Below are positions 6,101-57,113 of a stretch of 64,000 nucleotides of DNA, in pieces; positions within the stretch are counted from its first letter, which is position 1, and the number at the start of each line of letters is the position of its first letter. Location of the stretch: NCBI GenBank assembly GCA_027067955.1, contig JAMOUW010000083.1, positions 1 to 64,000 of the forward strand, written 5' to 3'. The notes beneath the pieces are model-generated. The model saw nothing but the letters and a program-made list of their open reading frames with translations. It searched no databases and was not told the origin of the DNA. The DNA comes from Thermaceae bacterium. GTDB lineage: Bacteria; Deinococcota; Deinococci; Deinococcales; Marinithermaceae. The position numbers and the translations under genes were made by a program.

Positions 6101-7090
6101 CTACTGACTGGATCGTTTAAGCGCCTCCCGCAAGGCGGAGATCGTGGAAGGAAGCCCGGCGTCGATCGAGCGCGGAGAGAAGCCGAGCTGGGTGCGCGCC
6201 TTGCGGTTGCTGGCGGTGTAGCTGACACTGGCCAGGCGCAGGGCCTCCGAAGTGTAACGGGGGGGTAGCTTCGAATCGAAGGGGCGGACCAGGTAGCTGG
6301 CCGCCTTGAGCAACGGGGCGGGCACGGGTACCAGCTGCGAGCGCGAACCGGCGATTTCGCGAGCGCGCTGCATTACCTCCACGAGGGTTGCCGGCTCTCC
6401 GCTGATGTTGTACGCCTCTCCAGGCATCCCCCACTCCATTGCCAGAACGTGGGCTTCCACCGTGTCGTCGATGTGCGACCAGCAGTAAACGGTATCGGCG
6501 GGCAGAAACAGCAGGGGACGGTCCTGCAGCAGATCGCGCAGCAGGCTCCCGATGGCGCTGGGGTCGCCCGGTCCGAAGACCAGTCCCGGCAGCACCGTGA
6601 CGAGGGGCAGCCCCGACTCGGCCTGGGGGAGCGCCACCTCGTAGTAAGCCTTCCACATGCTGCGGTCGAAAGCGCTGGCCCAGCCAAGCTCGGCGCCGTT
6701 GTAGAAATAGTTTTCGTCCACGAGCTGGCCGCGGGTGTCACCGTAAATGGCGATGGTCGATGTATAGACTATCTTGAATACCTTGAGATCTCCCGCAACT
6801 TCCAGTACGTTGCGGGTGCCCTCGAGGTTTAGGCGTTCTCCGGCGGGGTTGCTCCGTCCAATACCAAACCAGCTGGCTGTGTGAAACACGCCGTCCACAC
6901 CTTCCATGGCGGGCTTCAGGCTGTCGCGGTCGGTAACGGAGCCCGAGAATACTTGGGCCCCCCTCTTTTCCAGAGAGGCCAGAGATTTGGGCTTGCGGGT
7001 GAGGACGCGCACCTTGTGCCCGTCCGCGAGCAACCTACGAGCCAGACGTTTGCCGATGTAGCTAGTGGCTCCGGTGACGAGGTAGGTCAT
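6101..7090 (-). CDS. NAD-dependent epimerase/dehydratase-like protein (atypical extended SDR)
   Basis: 329 residues. The N-terminus has the extended-SDR nucleotide motif TGATSYIGKRLARRLL, followed by the DVxG-type region GVDGVFHTASWFG and the active-site strand YTSTIAIYG. The usual YxxxK is not seen: the matching place reads WKAYYEVALPQ, so the lysine is missing. That argues for an atypical SDR that binds NAD(P) but may not do standard redox chemistry. A CATACT box 5 nt before the ATG suggests a leaderless start. The substrate is unknown. Confidence 0.8.
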   Translation of the reverse strand: MTYLVTGATSYIGKRLARRLLADGHKVRVLTRKPKSLASLEKRGAQVFSGSVTDRDSLKPAMEGVDGVFHTASWFGIGRSNPAGERLNLEGTRNVLEVAGDLKVFKIVYTSTIAIYGDTRGQLVDENYFYNGAELGWASAFDRSMWKAYYEVALPQAESGLPLVTVLPGLVFGPGDPSAIGSLLRDLLQDRPLLFLPADTVYCWSHIDDTVEAHVLAMEWGMPGEAYNISGEPATLVEVMQRAREIAGSRSQLVPVPAPLLKAASYLVRPFDSKLPPRYTSEALRLASVSYTASNRKARTQLGFSPRSIDAGLPSTISALREALKRSSQ

Positions 7091-7127
7091 GCCCTAGTAT
7101 GTCATGGACGACCGGCGCAGGGGAATA

Positions 7128-8921
7128 TCAGGATTCGCCGTCGCTTTCTGGCGCGTCTTCGTTGGTTTCCCGCCACACCTGCCGCAGGCGGGCCTTGAAG
7201 AGACTCTGTAGCTTGTGAAAGCGCGGATCGTCGAGGAGCGCTATCCTGTCGAAGCGGGGTTCTGGGGACGCGTCGGCCTTTTTATTTTTGCTTCGCCGCG
7301 CCGGTTTTCTGCGGTTCTTTGCGGGGCGGTTTTCGGCCCCCTTCGCAGCCGGCGGCGGCGCTTCCGGGGGAGGTTCTGGAGGCGCAGCCGGAGGGCGGGC
7401 TTCGGAAGCGGCGGGCGGGGTCGGCTTCGCCGCTGGTTTTGCTGCGTCCCCTTCTTCTTGTCCGGCTGCGGGTGGTGCGGCGGAATCAGGGCTGACCCGG
7501 GAGTTTTTTTTACCCAGCAGGAAGCGTACGCCGCGACCCAGCGCCTTCCTCACCGCGGCTTCCACCACGGCCTGCTGATCGCGGGCGCGGTCGTAGTGAA
7601 AGCGGTGCCCCTCGTCGTAGACGAGTACAAGTGCGTCATCCTCCAGGCGGGGGGTGGCTTCGATGAGGAAGGCGCGCACCTTGATACCCACCTCGGCCAG
7701 TACCTGGCGCCAGGCGGTGGCCAGATCGACCGCCGGGTCCGCCGGCGGGGCTGTTTCGGCGTGGGCAGGTTCACTTTGGGCGGTGGGTGCCGGAGATGGG
7801 GACGGTGCTCCAGCGGGAAGGGGGCTCTCGGGAATCGCGGGTTGCGGCGGGACCGGTTGGCTTGCGGGTGCCGGTTCGGGGGCCGCGTGCAGCGCTGCGT
7901 AGGCGCGCAGCAACCCCAGCTCGAGGGTAAAGGAATCCTCACGCCGGATCAGCTTCTCGGTGTGTTCGTCCAGCTCCGTCAGTGCCGCAATCAGGTTTTC
8001 GGGGTTCGAGGACAGCCCGGGGCCCTCCTCCAGACCCAGCCGGGTGTAAAGCCCCGCCCGCAGAGCCTGGGCGAGCTGTTCGATGAGCGTGCGGGCGGAA
8101 TACCCTTCCGAAAACAGCTGCTTGGCCCCGGCGACCGCCCGGTCCACTTCGCCGGCGTCCAGGGCTGCGGCCATGGCCGCCACGCGCTCGGCGGGGGGCA
8201 GACCCAGGGCTTCCTCCGCGGCCTCGCGGGTTATGGGATCGGCGTCCAGGGCCAGCAACCGGTCGAGAATACTCTCGGCGTCGCGCATGGCTCCGCCGCT
8301 CATACGCGCGATCAGCCGCAGCGCTTCGGGTTCGGCCGTGCGCCCCTCGGCCTCGAGTACCGCCGCCAGTTTTCCCGCAATCTCCTCTTCGCTCAGGCGC
8401 CGGAAGCGGAAGTGCTGGGTGCGCGAGAGGATGGTTGCGGGCATGCGTTCGGGCTCGGTGGTGGCGAAGATGAAGATTACGTGTTCAGGGGGTTCCTCCA
8501 GGGTTTTCAGCAGCGCGTTGAAGGCGCTTTTTGACATCATGTGCGCTTCGTCGAGGATGATTACTTTTTTCGGAGCCAGCAGCGGGGCCAGCAGAATACG
8601 TTCGCGCAGTTCGCGCACGTCCTCCACCGAGTTGTTGCTGGCGGCGTCGATCTCCACCACGTCGGGGTGGCGGTCCTCGCGAACCAGCCGGCAGTTTTCG
8701 CACTCGCCGCAGGGGCGCGCCCCCCGGTCGGCGGCGCAGCCTACGCTCATGGCGATCAGGCGAGCGGTGGTCGTCTTGCCCACGCCCCGCGGGCCTGAGA
8801 ATAGATAGGCGTGCGCCAGCCGATCCTTGCGGATGGCGCTCTTAAGCACCTCCTTGACGTGTTCCTGGCCCACCACGGCGTCGAAGGTAGCGGGGCGGGC
8901 GCGGCGGTAGAGGGCTCCCAC
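7128..8921 (-). CDS. dnaX: DNA polymerase III subunits tau and gamma
   Basis: 597 residues from a GTG start. The clamp-loader ATPase part has Walker A GPRGVGKTT near residue 46, the four-Cys zinc module (CAADRGARPCGECENC), Walker B VIILDEAH and the SRC-type sensor LSRTQHFRFRR. A proline/alanine-rich linker follows and the tau tail ends in basic clusters. At residues 470-473 the codons GGT AAA AAA AAC contain eight consecutive A (plus-strand T run 7504-7511). One extra A, or a -1 shift, leads to LPGQP and a TGA, giving a gamma form of about 478 residues. Thermus dnaX uses an A9 run at the matching place. Confidence 0.95.
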   Translation of the reverse strand: MGALYRRARPATFDAVVGQEHVKEVLKSAIRKDRLAHAYLFSGPRGVGKTTTARLIAMSVGCAADRGARPCGECENCRLVREDRHPDVVEIDAASNNSVEDVRELRERILLAPLLAPKKVIILDEAHMMSKSAFNALLKTLEEPPEHVIFIFATTEPERMPATILSRTQHFRFRRLSEEEIAGKLAAVLEAEGRTAEPEALRLIARMSGGAMRDAESILDRLLALDADPITREAAEEALGLPPAERVAAMAAALDAGEVDRAVAGAKQLFSEGYSARTLIEQLAQALRAGLYTRLGLEEGPGLSSNPENLIAALTELDEHTEKLIRREDSFTLELGLLRAYAALHAAPEPAPASQPVPPQPAIPESPLPAGAPSPSPAPTAQSEPAHAETAPPADPAVDLATAWRQVLAEVGIKVRAFLIEATPRLEDDALVLVYDEGHRFHYDRARDQQAVVEAAVRKALGRGVRFLLGKKNSRVSPDSAAPPAAGQEEGDAAKPAAKPTPPAASEARPPAAPPEPPPEAPPPAAKGAENRPAKNRRKPARRSKNKKADASPEPRFDRIALLDDPRFHKLQSLFKARLRQVWRETNEDAPESDGES

Positions 8922-51055: not shown

Positions 51056-52072
51056 ATGATGAACAAAAACGGTTTACGGTTTGAAGTCGCCTTGCTCATC
51101 GGTTTCACCTGGTTGCTGGCCGCCTGCTCCAGCTCCACTGGTTCGGCCAAGAACAATCCACCCGCCCCCGACACAACGCCTCCGCAACTCACGGCAGCGT
51201 ACCCGGCGGACAATTTCCACGGCTTCAAACAGGGGGAGCGGATCACCCTCCAGTTCAGCGAGCCCATGGATACCGCATCGGTGAAGTCGGCCTTCAGGCT
51301 TACCGGTGGAGGCAAGGCGTCGTGGCCGGTGACGTTTACCTGGGAAAACAATAACCAGCGTTTGCTGATAGCTCCCGATCAGTCCTTGCCGTACAGTCCC
51401 AACTCCAGCTATGAATACTTCGTTTGGGAGCTGGCCGCTACCGCCAAAGACGTTGCCGGCAATTCCCTGGACCGGGCTTACCGGGCCAAATTTTCGACCC
51501 TGCGCACCCTCTCCGCCCGCCTTCCCGCCGAGAACATAGACGGCATGACCATAATCCACAAGGGAACTTCGGATCTGACCGACACCAGCAAGCCCTACTC
51601 CTTTGCGGGCGATTTCTCCAACAAGGCATGCGCCCAGGCGTTTTTCTCCTTTGATCTGAGCGGGCTCCCCGCGGACCTGGTTGCTTTCAAGAGCGCGGTT
51701 TTCGCCGCTTACATCCTCAAGATAGCGGGCGATCCTTACGGCAGTTTGGGTGGCTGGCTGCGGCTGGACCACCTCGACTACGGTGACACCCTGGAGGAGG
51801 CGGATTCCAGCCTCCAGCCGCTAACCGACGGAAACGGCAATCCCGAAACCCGGCAGGTAACCAACAACTGGGTCAGTGACTGGCGCCGGGAGACCCTGCC
51901 CCCGGGGTGGCTTGACCGGGACGTTGCTGCCAAGAGGGCGCACTTTCAGCTCCGCTATCACTTTGACGTCTGCACCGACGAGGACGGTGTGCACGACCGC
52001 CTTAGGTTCGCCACCAGCGAAGACTCCGGCGGGCACGCGCCCTACGTGGACGTCGAGTACCTGGTGCCCTGA
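51056..52072 (+). CDS. Ig-like (SbsA-type) lipoprotein 2
   Basis: 338 residues. Lipobox LAAC. Same two domains: QFSEPMDTASVKSAFRL, FSTLRTL, then FFSFDLSGLP, LDHLDYGDTLEEAD, and YVDVEYLVP at the end. It has no repeat promoter of its own, and starts 8 bp after lipoprotein 1, so these form an operon. Cys in NKACAQAFFSF and DVCTDE probably pair. ATG 51059 is an alternative start. Confidence 0.75.
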   Translation: MMNKNGLRFEVALLIGFTWLLAACSSSTGSAKNNPPAPDTTPPQLTAAYPADNFHGFKQGERITLQFSEPMDTASVKSAFRLTGGGKASWPVTFTWENNNQRLLIAPDQSLPYSPNSSYEYFVWELAATAKDVAGNSLDRAYRAKFSTLRTLSARLPAENIDGMTIIHKGTSDLTDTSKPYSFAGDFSNKACAQAFFSFDLSGLPADLVAFKSAVFAAYILKIAGDPYGSLGGWLRLDHLDYGDTLEEADSSLQPLTDGNGNPETRQVTNNWVSDWRRETLPPGWLDRDVAAKRAHFQLRYHFDVCTDEDGVHDRLRFATSEDSGGHAPYVDVEYLVP

Positions 52073-52156
52073 GGAGCGGCCCGGGTGAAGGAGCCCCGTG
52101 GAACACGGCGGTTTTTGGCCGTGCCGTCAGCGCTCGGGCCTGCCGAAACCCGTATA

Positions 52157-52190
52157 TTGTGACGCTTTTGTGACGGTCGCCCGCTAGGCT
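52157..52190 (+). promoter_or_regulatory. Direct-repeat promoter of lipoprotein gene 3
   Basis: TTGTGACG at 52157-52164 and 52168-52175, 11 bp apart, 9 nt, TAGGCT (52185-52190). Nearly identical over ~40 bp to the copy at 53416. Confidence 0.68.
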
Positions 52191-52211
52191 GCCGCCATGA
52201 GGGGAGCAAGC

Positions 52212-53192
52212 ATGAAACGACTAGATAGATGGCTCGTTGGTTTCGTACTCTTAGTGGCATTGGCGGCCTGCCAGACGGCGGCGCCGCCAGATACCACGGC
52301 CCCGCAGATCGTTTCGGTAACCCCGGCGGATAGTTCTACCGGCGTTACTGGCGCTGCTAAGATTAAGATCCAGTTCAGCGAACCGATGGACATCGTTTCG
52401 ACTCAGGCGGCCTACTCGTCCGACAGTGATGGTATCAAGCCGGCTCAGGTCACCTTTACCTGGGAAGATGCCGGTAAGCGGCTGGTCATTACCCCCAACG
52501 CCCCGCTAGCCTACAGCCCCGACGAAGACTACAAGACCTATTCCTTCACCCTCTCCACCGCCGCCACCGACAAGGCGGGCAACCCCCTGGCCGCGGCGAA
52601 GTCTGCCAGCTTTAGCACCTTGCGCACCTTAACGAGCAATCTGGATCCAGAAAGAATCGATGGCGTAGTTTACTTCTCTCACGAAGAGACCAACGGTGGC
52701 GAAGAATCATATGGGGCGGGTAGTTCGGGTACTAAAGCTTTTGCGGGTATGACCGATACGAGCGTGGGAGACTACTACTGCAACAAAGCCTTTTTCTCGT
52801 TCGCCCTGACCGGCTTACCAGAAGGAACGGAAGAGGTTCTGGCCGCAAAGTTGGGCTTGTACTCCACGTTGGTCGGTGACGCTAGCTCGTTGAGTTTCGT
52901 GCTGGATCACGTCGACTTTGGCGATGGACTAGACGAAGGCGACTATGACACGCCCGTTTACAAGACGGGCGAGGGTACGTACGCCTCTTTTGGCAACGGT
53001 GCCATTACCCAGTTTGACGTTGGCGACTGGGTACAGACCAGCTTCGCCGCTGGCGACGACCACTTCCAGGTGCGCGTCTCGATGACGGGAACGTGCTCGA
53101 GCTCGTTAACTGACAGCACCGATGGTTACGATTTTGGAACCAGCGAGTCTACGAACAAGCCCACGCTCGAAGTCAAGTACTACGCTCCTTGA
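52212..53192 (+). CDS. Ig-like (SbsA-type) lipoprotein 3
   Basis: 326 residues. Lipobox LAAC. Conserved QFSEPMDIVSTQAAY, VTFTWEDAGKRLVI, FSTLRTL, FFSFALTGLP, LDHVDFGDGLDEGD and LEVKYYAP. Cys in DYYCNKAFFSF and TGTCSSS likely form a disulfide. Start at 52212 has GGGGAG 6 nt upstream. Its own direct-repeat promoter lies 22 nt upstream of the start. Confidence 0.75.
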   Translation: MKRLDRWLVGFVLLVALAACQTAAPPDTTAPQIVSVTPADSSTGVTGAAKIKIQFSEPMDIVSTQAAYSSDSDGIKPAQVTFTWEDAGKRLVITPNAPLAYSPDEDYKTYSFTLSTAATDKAGNPLAAAKSASFSTLRTLTSNLDPERIDGVVYFSHEETNGGEESYGAGSSGTKAFAGMTDTSVGDYYCNKAFFSFALTGLPEGTEEVLAAKLGLYSTLVGDASSLSFVLDHVDFGDGLDEGDYDTPVYKTGEGTYASFGNGAITQFDVGDWVQTSFAAGDDHFQVRVSMTGTCSSSLTDSTDGYDFGTSESTNKPTLEVKYYAP

Positions 53193-53415
53193 AACCTCTT
53201 TCGCTACTTTTTCGACCGCAATAGGATAACGGGGATTTTGGTCGGTGCAGTTGGGGTATGAAAAAACGCCAAGCCATTTTGTGCCCGAAGCCAGAGGGAA
53301 GCATATTTGTGGGAATTTGACGCGCGATCTTATCAGCCTGCTTTGCATTCTGGCGATACGGATTTGGCCCCGGATAAGAATACGAAGCCAGAAACATATA
53401 GGAGATATGGGTGGT

Positions 53416-53449
53416 TTGTGACGCTTTTGTGACGGTCGCCCGCTAGGCT
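53416..53449 (+). promoter_or_regulatory. Direct-repeat promoter of lipoprotein gene 4
   Basis: TTGTGACG at 53416-53423 and 53427-53434, 11 bp apart, 9 nt, TAGGCT (53444-53449). Confidence 0.68.
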
Positions 53450-53470
53450 GCCGCTTCGAAGGGAGCAGAC

Positions 53471-54454
53471 ATGAGACAAGCAAATGTATGGTTCGTCGGT
53501 TTAGCTTTGCTGGTGGTGCTGGCGGCCTGCCAGGCAACGGCGCCGAAGAACGGCGACGAAAGCAAAGACACCACCGCACCCGAGATCGTCGCGATCGAAC
53601 CCGCCAACGGCGCCACGGGTGTCGTCAAAACCGCCAGGATCACTATCGAGTTCAGCGAGCCGATGGACACCGCCAGCGTCGAAGATGCTTACGGCTCGAG
53701 CAGCGACGGCATCAAACCGGGCCAGGTAACCTTCACCTGGGAAGACGCGGACAAAAAGCTGGTGATCACGCCTGCCGCGGAGCTGGCCTACAGCTCCAAC
53801 GCCACCCCCATCATCTATAGCTTCGCCATTGCCGGTAGCGCCGCCGACAAGGCGGGCAATACTCTCGGAAGCACGCTCGTCAGCAGTTTCAGCACCTTGC
53901 GAACCCTCACCGCTACCCTGGCGGCCGAGAGCATCGACGGTTACATCGAAGATGACGGTACGGGTAGCTATGCAGCACGCACCGGTGGCAGCCCGGTATT
54001 TGCGGGCATCGTGGATTCTTCGGGAGGCCCCTTCTCCTGTTCCCGCGCCTTCTTCTCATTTTCGCTTTCCGGCCTGCCCAAAAACATGACCGAGCTCACC
54101 GGCGCCGATTTGCAACTGTACACCAAGAAGTACTCCAGCTCCAGTTTCAGCAATGCTTTTTTGATCGCCCACGTCGATTATGGCGACAGCCTCGACGATG
54201 GCGACTTCAAAGGACCGCTCTTTTCCGGCAGCAAGATCGAAACGATCAGTTTGGGGGATCAGGTCACCAACCACCGTGACGTGGCCGAATGGCTGCGGGC
54301 CAGCATCGATGCCGGCGGCGAACGCTTTCAGGTTCGTTTGTGGATGGACGGATGCGCCTCGCAGAGCGTGGACGCCAAGTACGGTTACGACATCAATTCC
54401 TCGGAAGCAAGCACCGACAAACCCCGGCTGGTGGTTTCCTACCTCGCCCCCTAG
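53471..54454 (+). CDS. Ig-like (SbsA-type) lipoprotein 4
   Basis: 327 residues. Lipobox LAAC. IEFSEPMDTASVEDAY, VTFTWEDADKKLVI, FSTLRTL, FFSFSLSGLP, AHVDYGDSLDDGD and LVVSYLAP. Cys in FSCSRAFFSF and DGCASQ. Most like lipoprotein 3, so a recent copy. The hairpin at 54473 ends the transcript inside the convergent SDR gene. The stop overlaps that gene by 4 bp. Confidence 0.75.
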   Translation: MRQANVWFVGLALLVVLAACQATAPKNGDESKDTTAPEIVAIEPANGATGVVKTARITIEFSEPMDTASVEDAYGSSSDGIKPGQVTFTWEDADKKLVITPAAELAYSSNATPIIYSFAIAGSAADKAGNTLGSTLVSSFSTLRTLTATLAAESIDGYIEDDGTGSYAARTGGSPVFAGIVDSSGGPFSCSRAFFSFSLSGLPKNMTELTGADLQLYTKKYSSSSFSNAFLIAHVDYGDSLDDGDFKGPLFSGSKIETISLGDQVTNHRDVAEWLRASIDAGGERFQVRLWMDGCASQSVDAKYGYDINSSEASTDKPRLVVSYLAP

Positions 54455-55394: not shown

Positions 55395-57074
55395 CTAGTC
55401 CACCACCTCGAACCCCAGCTCGGCGGCGCGGTCCACGAAGAACTGGATGTTCTCGCTTTTCGTCTGCCCGCCCAGGCTTTTGCGGTCCCAGGCCTCCTCG
55501 GCTGCCAGGATCATTGTTTCGGCCAGGCAGGCCGGCACCAGGTCGGGCCCGCCGAAGCGCAGGTCCAGGTTCACCTCGGCCTCGCCGGGCAGGCGCACCA
55601 CCCCGCCGGGGATGACGCGCACGCCCGGCACGTCCTTCACCGCCGGGTCCACGTCGGGGGGCACTCCCTCGTCGTAGATCCAGGCGCCTGGCTTTACGAA
55701 ATCGGGGAAGATGACCGCCCCCGGGTCGGAGGTGGCGGTGAAGACCAGGTCGGCTTCCTTGATGGCGGGGATCTCGGTCGTCGTCACGATCTCGGTACCC
55801 GCCCCCTTGCGGGCCACCATCCGGCGCAGGGTTTCAGCGCTCTTCTCGAGGCGTTCGAGGTTGCGCCCCACCAGGATCAGCCGTCCCACCAGCGGCGCGA
55901 TCTGGCGGGCGATGCCGAAGGCCACCACCCCGTTCGCGCCCACCACCGCGGCGGTCACCTTCGAAAGCGGCTTGCCTTCGCGCTCCGCGCGCTCGAGGAT
56001 CTGCGGGATCGCCGCCTTGACGGTGCCGGCGGTGTAGGCTCCGCCGTTGGTCACCTGGATCTCGGGTACCGCCTCCTGTACCTTCAGGCCCTTGTCGCCC
56101 ACCACGCTCCAGAAGGCCCCGAGCCCGAAGACGGTGGCTCCCAGCTCGGCGGCTAGCCGTGCACCCTGGATGGCGCGGCGGGTGGCCAGTTCGGGCTTGC
56201 CGGTGATCTGGTGGGGGAGGAGCGGCGCTGAGATGAGGTAGCAGCGAACCTCGCGGCCGCCTTTGGTGCGCACCCCGCGGATCTCGCCCACCTTCATGGG
56301 CCGGAAGCGTTCGGCCAGACGCTCGACCCAGGTTTGTTTGATCAGGCCGGCACGCACCAGCGGGCGCAGCCAGGCGAAGCGGGGACTTTGCCAGAAATCC
56401 TCGAGGGTGAGCGGGTGGATCATGAAGGCGCAGACCACCTGGTCCCTGCCCGGCAGGGGTGCGGGTTCCCCCAACCGGGGCTCGGTGCCCTCGAGAATGC
56501 GCCCCAGGTTTTCCTTGTAGCGCCAGATCACCACCGCGGCCAGAATCCAGGCGAGCACCTGTGCGAGCGTGCTTACCGGCAGGAACATGAGCACCAGCGC
56601 CAGCGTGAAGGCCAGTGTAACCACCGCCAGCGAGTAGTAGCCGCTGAGGGCAAAGGCGATGAGCGCGAAAACGAAGGGCAGGAAGGCCTGCAGGTAAGGA
56701 TAGCCGGTGACCGAGAGTCCGGCCAGGATACCCGTAAGTAAACCGCCGCCGCGGGCCCGGAAGGGGCGTTCGGGTGCCAGGAAGGGTGGCGGGTTGAGGT
56801 GTCCCAGATATGCGGCCAGCGCCAGCAGCAAAGCGGCCTCGAGCCCCAGCCCCCGCGCCAGGTAGACTGCGAGGAAGCCCTTGAAGATGTCCAGGCCGAA
56901 GGCCAGCAGCACCGGGCCGGCGCCGAGGACGCGCACGGCGCTTTCGAAGCCCAGGTTGTAGACCGAGGCCAGGCGCGGGCTCTTGCCCGTGATTCGGCGC
57001 ACCGCCCAGTATCCGAGTGGCACGGCGCCGATCAGGTAAGCGAGCAAAGCAAGGGGAATTACGGTCCAGGTCAA
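55395..57074 (-). CDS. PlsY-like membrane domain fused to an acyl-ACP/CoA reductase-like domain
   Basis: 559 residues. Residues ~1-205: six helices resembling glycerol-3-phosphate acyltransferase PlsY, with LIGAVPLGYWAVR at the start, GHLNPPPFL and the ending RYKENLGRILEGTEPRLG; the PlsY glycine-rich and GGKG motifs are degenerate. Residues ~210-559: like long-chain acyl-ACP reductases (COG5322): FMIHPLTLEDFW, KVGEIRGVRTKGGREV, GATVFGLGAFWSVVG, VTNGGAYTAGT, and NAD(P) fold AAVVGANGVVAFGIARQ. It may make fatty aldehydes at the membrane. Confidence 0.72.
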   Translation of the reverse strand: MTWTVIPLALLAYLIGAVPLGYWAVRRITGKSPRLASVYNLGFESAVRVLGAGPVLLAFGLDIFKGFLAVYLARGLGLEAALLLALAAYLGHLNPPPFLAPERPFRARGGGLLTGILAGLSVTGYPYLQAFLPFVFALIAFALSGYYSLAVVTLAFTLALVLMFLPVSTLAQVLAWILAAVVIWRYKENLGRILEGTEPRLGEPAPLPGRDQVVCAFMIHPLTLEDFWQSPRFAWLRPLVRAGLIKQTWVERLAERFRPMKVGEIRGVRTKGGREVRCYLISAPLLPHQITGKPELATRRAIQGARLAAELGATVFGLGAFWSVVGDKGLKVQEAVPEIQVTNGGAYTAGTVKAAIPQILERAEREGKPLSKVTAAVVGANGVVAFGIARQIAPLVGRLILVGRNLERLEKSAETLRRMVARKGAGTEIVTTTEIPAIKEADLVFTATSDPGAVIFPDFVKPGAWIYDEGVPPDVDPAVKDVPGVRVIPGGVVRLPGEAEVNLDLRFGGPDLVPACLAETMILAAEEAWDRKSLGGQTKSENIQFFVDRAAELGFEVVD

Positions 57075-57113
57075 AACGAGCCTCCCTAGCTGGTAGCAGT
57101 TTACTTCAGTTTG

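Follow-up and report, generated by a model that had tools for sequence, protein, structure and literature searches.

A PlsY-like domain fused to an AAR/PigE-type acyl reductase domain in Deinococcota, with a possible role in alkylamine lipid synthesis

Using a stretch of 64,000 nucleotides from a Thermaceae bacterium (contig JAMOUW010000083.1; hereafter, the window), we analyzed a gene in which a PlsY-like membrane half is joined to an acyl reductase half (Table 1). The parts are known, from the PlsY and AAR/PigE families, respectively; what is new is their fusion, which occurs phylum-wide in Deinococcota, and no earlier description of a PlsY-like/acyl reductase combination was found. Taking the evidence as a whole, we lean toward the explanation that the protein is a membrane-anchored long-chain acyl reductase that feeds an alkylamine lipid via an aminotransferase, together with an uncharacterized protein, X. 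The fusion is a good candidate for the enzyme starting the long-chain amine tail of the signature lipid of Deinococcota; it is a single gene to delete, with X and the aminotransferase as two more.

Table 1. Coordinates of the fusion gene and its features in the window.
Feature	Position	Strand	Basis
Whole gene, PlsY-like/acyl reductase fusion	55395..57074	-	ORF, 559 codons/559 aa, TTG start
Ribosome-binding site GGGAGG, 6 nt upstream of the TTG start	57081..57086	-	sequence
PlsY-like membrane half, residues 1-203	56466..57074	-	PF02660, model mostly membrane helices, Foldseek
E44, aaPlsY Thr41 position, Glu in 61/62 fusions	56943..56945	-	alignment
H92, aaPlsY His92, acyl-phosphate phosphate hole, invariant	56799..56801	-	alignment, PMC5700162
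R106-x-R/K108 loop in place of the PlsY GGKG loop	56751..56759	-	alignment
AAR/PigE-type acyl reductase half, residues 212-559	55398..56441	-	profile, PDB sequence and model matches
Dinucleotide loop 379-GANGVVAFG-387 (AAR 162-GATGDIG-168)	55914..55940	-	alignment
C516, S. elongatus AAR acyl-thioester Cys294, invariant 62/62	55527..55529	-	alignment

An earlier note had read the protein as a PlsY-like domain followed by an acyl-ACP reductase-like domain, and had proposed profile searches of each half and a structure prediction. The fusion proved to be real by all of these approaches. The N-terminal half matches PF02660 (PlsY) over residues 11-193 (E 7.3e-26, exceeding the gathering score), and its TIGR00023 (PlsY) score of 76 bits is below the equivalog cut-off of 137.2 bits. 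The best NCBIfam match of the C-terminal half is PigE (residues 261-555, E 2.8e-29, under the equivalog cut-off), and TIGR04058 (acyl-ACP reductase) matches it with E 1.4e-13 and 50.9 bits, below the equivalog cut-off of 449.7 bits. The family and motifs are those that had been noted, but the half belongs to the wider AAR/PigE family and is not an orthodox AAR. A PDB sequence search with the fusion retrieved 6jzu (AAR) and 5xj5 (PlsY). The AlphaFold2 model has a mean pLDDT of 62, with most of the membrane half at 80-94 and the reductase half much lower; it nevertheless retrieves both folds, the best Foldseek matches in the PDB being PlsY (5xj6-5xj8; TMt of 0.80-0.83 for the PlsY half against 5xj6/5xj7) and AAR (6jzq). 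When the reductase half was modelled alone, AAR was still the first Foldseek match, at a low-confidence pLDDT of 54.

The distribution was examined in 111 Deinococcota genomes, in 386 genomes across Bacteria, and in 43 reductase loci read outside Deinococcota. The whole protein as a query matches all 111 Deinococcota genomes because it also finds canonical PlsY; the reductase half was therefore counted, and is present in 107 of the 111. The four genomes without it are three incomplete assemblies and one genome (G100) that is 96% complete. Most of the 107 genomes encode the reductase and PlsY halves in a single open frame, some matches being cut by contig ends, and the fusion is present in named Thermaceae and Meiothermus, including Meiothermus taiwanensis; thus, it is not an assembly artefact. 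No Deinococcaceae were recognized among the genomes examined, the sole sign being a reductase-profile match in Deinobacterium chartae, used as a control. Across Bacteria, the reductase was found in 47 of 386 genomes, 44 of these outside Deinococcota, and none of the 43 loci read there contains PlsY (0/43); within the sampled genomes, the fusion is limited to Deinococcota. All Deinococcota reductases group together in the tree as a single clade (100/100) with a long branch; a single origin of the fusion is therefore probable. The reductase family occurs in 83 of 85 good genomes of the phylum to which G238 belongs (149 genomes), a near-universality that suggests a core role. Neither the reductase nor X had relatives in viral and plasmid collections, apart from one weak match: a reductase-like stretch with 28.7% identity in a phage record (MT835709.1:14382-15080, Bacteriophage sp., human faeces), perhaps bacterial DNA. 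Some f5 genomes have frames of 800-1134 aa; a third domain was considered for these and rejected, the extra stretch being antisense-ORF-like in composition (by eye).

Conservation of residues was counted over 62 fusion sequences, with aaPlsY (PMC5700162) as the reference for the PlsY half. The acyl-phosphate hole is present: H92, equivalent to the aaPlsY His92 that forms the hole for the phosphate (PMC5700162), and G109 (aaPlsY Gly105) of the glycine loop are each retained in 62/62, with Glu in place of Thr41. R106, which is new compared to PlsY, is invariant (62/62). At position 108, corresponding to Lys104 of aaPlsY, 57 fusions have Arg and 5 have Lys; it should be noted that this placement of the loop is alignment-dependent, and the PDB sequence alignment puts Gly at Lys104. 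The G3P pocket set (Ser35, Arg45, Lys104, Asn180, Ser142, His177) is not found in full: Ser35 and Ser142 are largely lost, His177 is retained in 10/62 and Asn180 in 39/62, and the Arg45 position is partly retained (Arg in 38, Lys in 16). Canonical PlsY from 14 genomes, by comparison, retains 17/17 checked residues. Canonical PlsY and PlsX are both encoded in the window's own genome; since they coexist with the fusion, the latter is probably not the G3P acyltransferase.

Purifying selection acts on both halves, with dN/dS of 0.14-0.21 in the PlsY half and 0.09-0.13 in the remainder, i.e., the PlsY half evolves faster. The motifs described in the earlier note are there, but calling them damaged was too strong given this dN/dS and an invariant signature of the half's own; judged from sequence, it is rebuilt rather than merely damaged. 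We regard it as unlikely that the PlsY half is a membrane anchor only and that the reductase acts as an ordinary AAR: the lost G3P pocket and the faster evolution are consistent with such a role, whereas the polar residues E44, H92, R106, R/K108, D62 and K65, invariant or nearly so in distant families, argue against it. We consider it less likely still that the half transfers acyl groups to a new acceptor (e.g., an amine or alcohol derived from the aldehyde), the fusion then carrying out two steps. In aaPlsY, most of the activity disappears when Ser35, Ser142, His177 or Thr41 is changed (PMC5700162), and all four are lost here, even though the half is under purifying selection, retains His92, the glycine loop and a basic residue where aaPlsY has Lys104, and has gained a nearly invariant Glu44. 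We infer that the PlsY half has been repurposed for acyl binding or transfer and is no longer a G3P acyltransferase.

In the reductase half, C516 is invariant (62/62), and the two arginines of AAR that help to bind the NADPH phosphate, Arg189 and Arg193 (PMC7089970), correspond to R404 (57/62) and R408 (62/62). The dinucleotide loop, 379GANGVVA385, differs from GxxGxxG in that the third Gly is Ala in 60/62. Reductase chemistry is likely for the fusion. Its substrate may differ from those of known relatives, given the long branch and the scores below the AAR and PigE cut-offs.

The neighbourhood of the fusion in Deinococcota contains no shared lipid genes; the neighbours are housekeeping genes that vary between families. 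A conserved operon context was rejected, with prmA, rsmE, futalosine hydrolase, cysE-like, SDR and phosphoribosyltransferase genes among the changing neighbours. In the window, three tandem similar ORFs (338, 331 and 327 aa) with lipoprotein-like starts lie at 51056-54454 (+) and converge on the SDR gene that follows the fusion.

Outside Deinococcota, X, a conserved protein of ~300 aa (L173:6275-7183 (-); in the window's own genome, G000:C59:32795-33682), adjoins or is fused to the reductase in 19 of the 43 loci read. Over the 386 genomes, 36 have both, 11 the reductase only, 1 X only, and 338 neither (p about 1e-39, uncorrected for relatedness), a near-perfect tie to the reductase family across phyla. 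The family-level table agrees: 21/21 families with X have the reductase, the total number of families being approximate. In 3 of the 11 genomes with the reductase but without X, the reductase is of the cyanobacterial type and adjoins aldehyde-deformylating oxygenase (one locus, L160, was confirmed by profile; the other two share its cluster). X is present in 106/111 Deinococcota genomes, in the regions read mostly directly upstream of apparent efp, accB and accC (names assigned by eye). X has no match in Pfam or NCBIfam and no convincing match in the PDB. Kinship with chaperonins was rejected because the PDB matches are weak, and kinship with AAR on a profile comparison probability of 1.6%. 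One locus has a single reductase gene beside two neighbouring X genes (L139:6133-7065 and 7070-7975).

The second recurrent partner, found in several lineages outside Deinococcota, is a class-III aminotransferase. It separates X from the reductase in L140 and L144, lies near the reductase in L145 and L152, and is fused to it in seven PigE-like loci (L159 and L164 were Pfam-scanned). In PigE/TamH, such a reductase and aminotransferase convert an acyl thioester to an aldehyde and then to an amine (PMC8341465, PMC9594044). Within Deinococcota, families f1 and f4 encode an aminotransferase that clusters with those of the operons and outside the ArgD-like clade (support 81/76). No such aminotransferase was detected in f2, f3 or f5, as judged from scores in most genomes and from the tree for five sequences, though the fusion is present there; neither was it found in the window's own genome (78% complete), and it is present in relatives of the same genus.

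The earlier note had held that members of this phylum make glyceroyl-alkylamine phosphoglycolipids, which is borne out: Meiothermus ruber, M. taiwanensis and two Thermus species have an N-glyceroyl-alkylamine phosphoglycolipid as their major phospholipid (PMC3035268; see also PMC3398001). The structure has been known since 1985, according to reference 7 as cited in PMC3398001. The major phospholipid of Oceanithermus profundus, which has the fusion, X and the aminotransferase, resembles it in Rf and staining and is likely that lipid (PMC3111992). N-glyceroyl alkylamines have also been reported in Moorella (PMC13274423). No enzyme named for the alkylamine was found in the open-access literature searched.

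Its further suggestion, that the fusion supplies the alkylamine, is in part sustained. The aminotransferase links elsewhere, the PigE/TamH chemistry and a distribution that fits the marker lipid speak for it, and the missing lipid-gene neighbourhood and the families without the candidate aminotransferase speak against it; on balance we consider this supply somewhat probable. The aldehyde could instead serve another product (a fatty alcohol, long-chain 1,2-diols or another lipid), with identical chemistry. Meiothermus may contain small quantities of long-chain diols (PMC3035268), f2, f3 and f5 have no dedicated aminotransferase that we found, and the usual partner, X, is uncharacterized. This alternative is nonetheless improbable, because the fusion is phylum-wide and, in other lineages, it is aminotransferases that are fused to the reductase or lie close to it.

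For the preferred alkylamine pathway, we infer the substrate, the product, the lipid destination and the roles of the PlsY half and X, and propose the following: (i) anchored in the membrane, the fusion would act as a long-chain fatty acyl reductase that probably uses NADPH, and its C-terminal half would load the acyl chain onto Cys516 and reduce it to a fatty aldehyde, like AAR and PigE/TamH; (ii) the PlsY-like half would not acylate G3P, would locate the reaction in the membrane, and would probably bind or hand over the acyl chain (from acyl-phosphate or acyl-ACP); (iii) a separate class-III aminotransferase would transaminate the aldehyde to the alkylamine of the N-glyceroyl-alkylamine phosphoglycolipids; (iv) the co-inherited X would act in the same pathway. 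A more specific version is doubtful, if conceivable: the PlsY half would capture the acyl-phosphate made by PlsX and pass the acyl group within the same polypeptide to Cys516, making the fusion a membrane aldehyde synthase that is supplied with acyl-phosphate and starts these lipids with X and the aminotransferase, and X/reductase pairs would act likewise in other phyla.

Three known systems can be compared to the fusion: (i) PlsY (5XJ5-5XJ8) has in common with it the fold, His92, the glycine loop, and the motif-3 Arg and Glu, whereas the fusion is without the G3P pocket, has Glu for Thr41 and Arg/Lys for Lys104, and coexists with canonical PlsY; (ii) cyanobacterial AAR (6JZU, TIGR04058) shares the sequence family, the catalytic Cys and the two NADPH arginines, whereas the fusion is distant (below the cut-off), has a PlsY-like half attached and, unlike cyanobacterial AAR, has no aldehyde-deformylating oxygenase seen beside it; (iii) PigE/TamH, composed of a reductase and a class-III aminotransferase, share the reductase family and are also fused, however their partner domain is the aminotransferase and their pathway leads to a secondary metabolite, whereas the partner in the fusion is PlsY-like.
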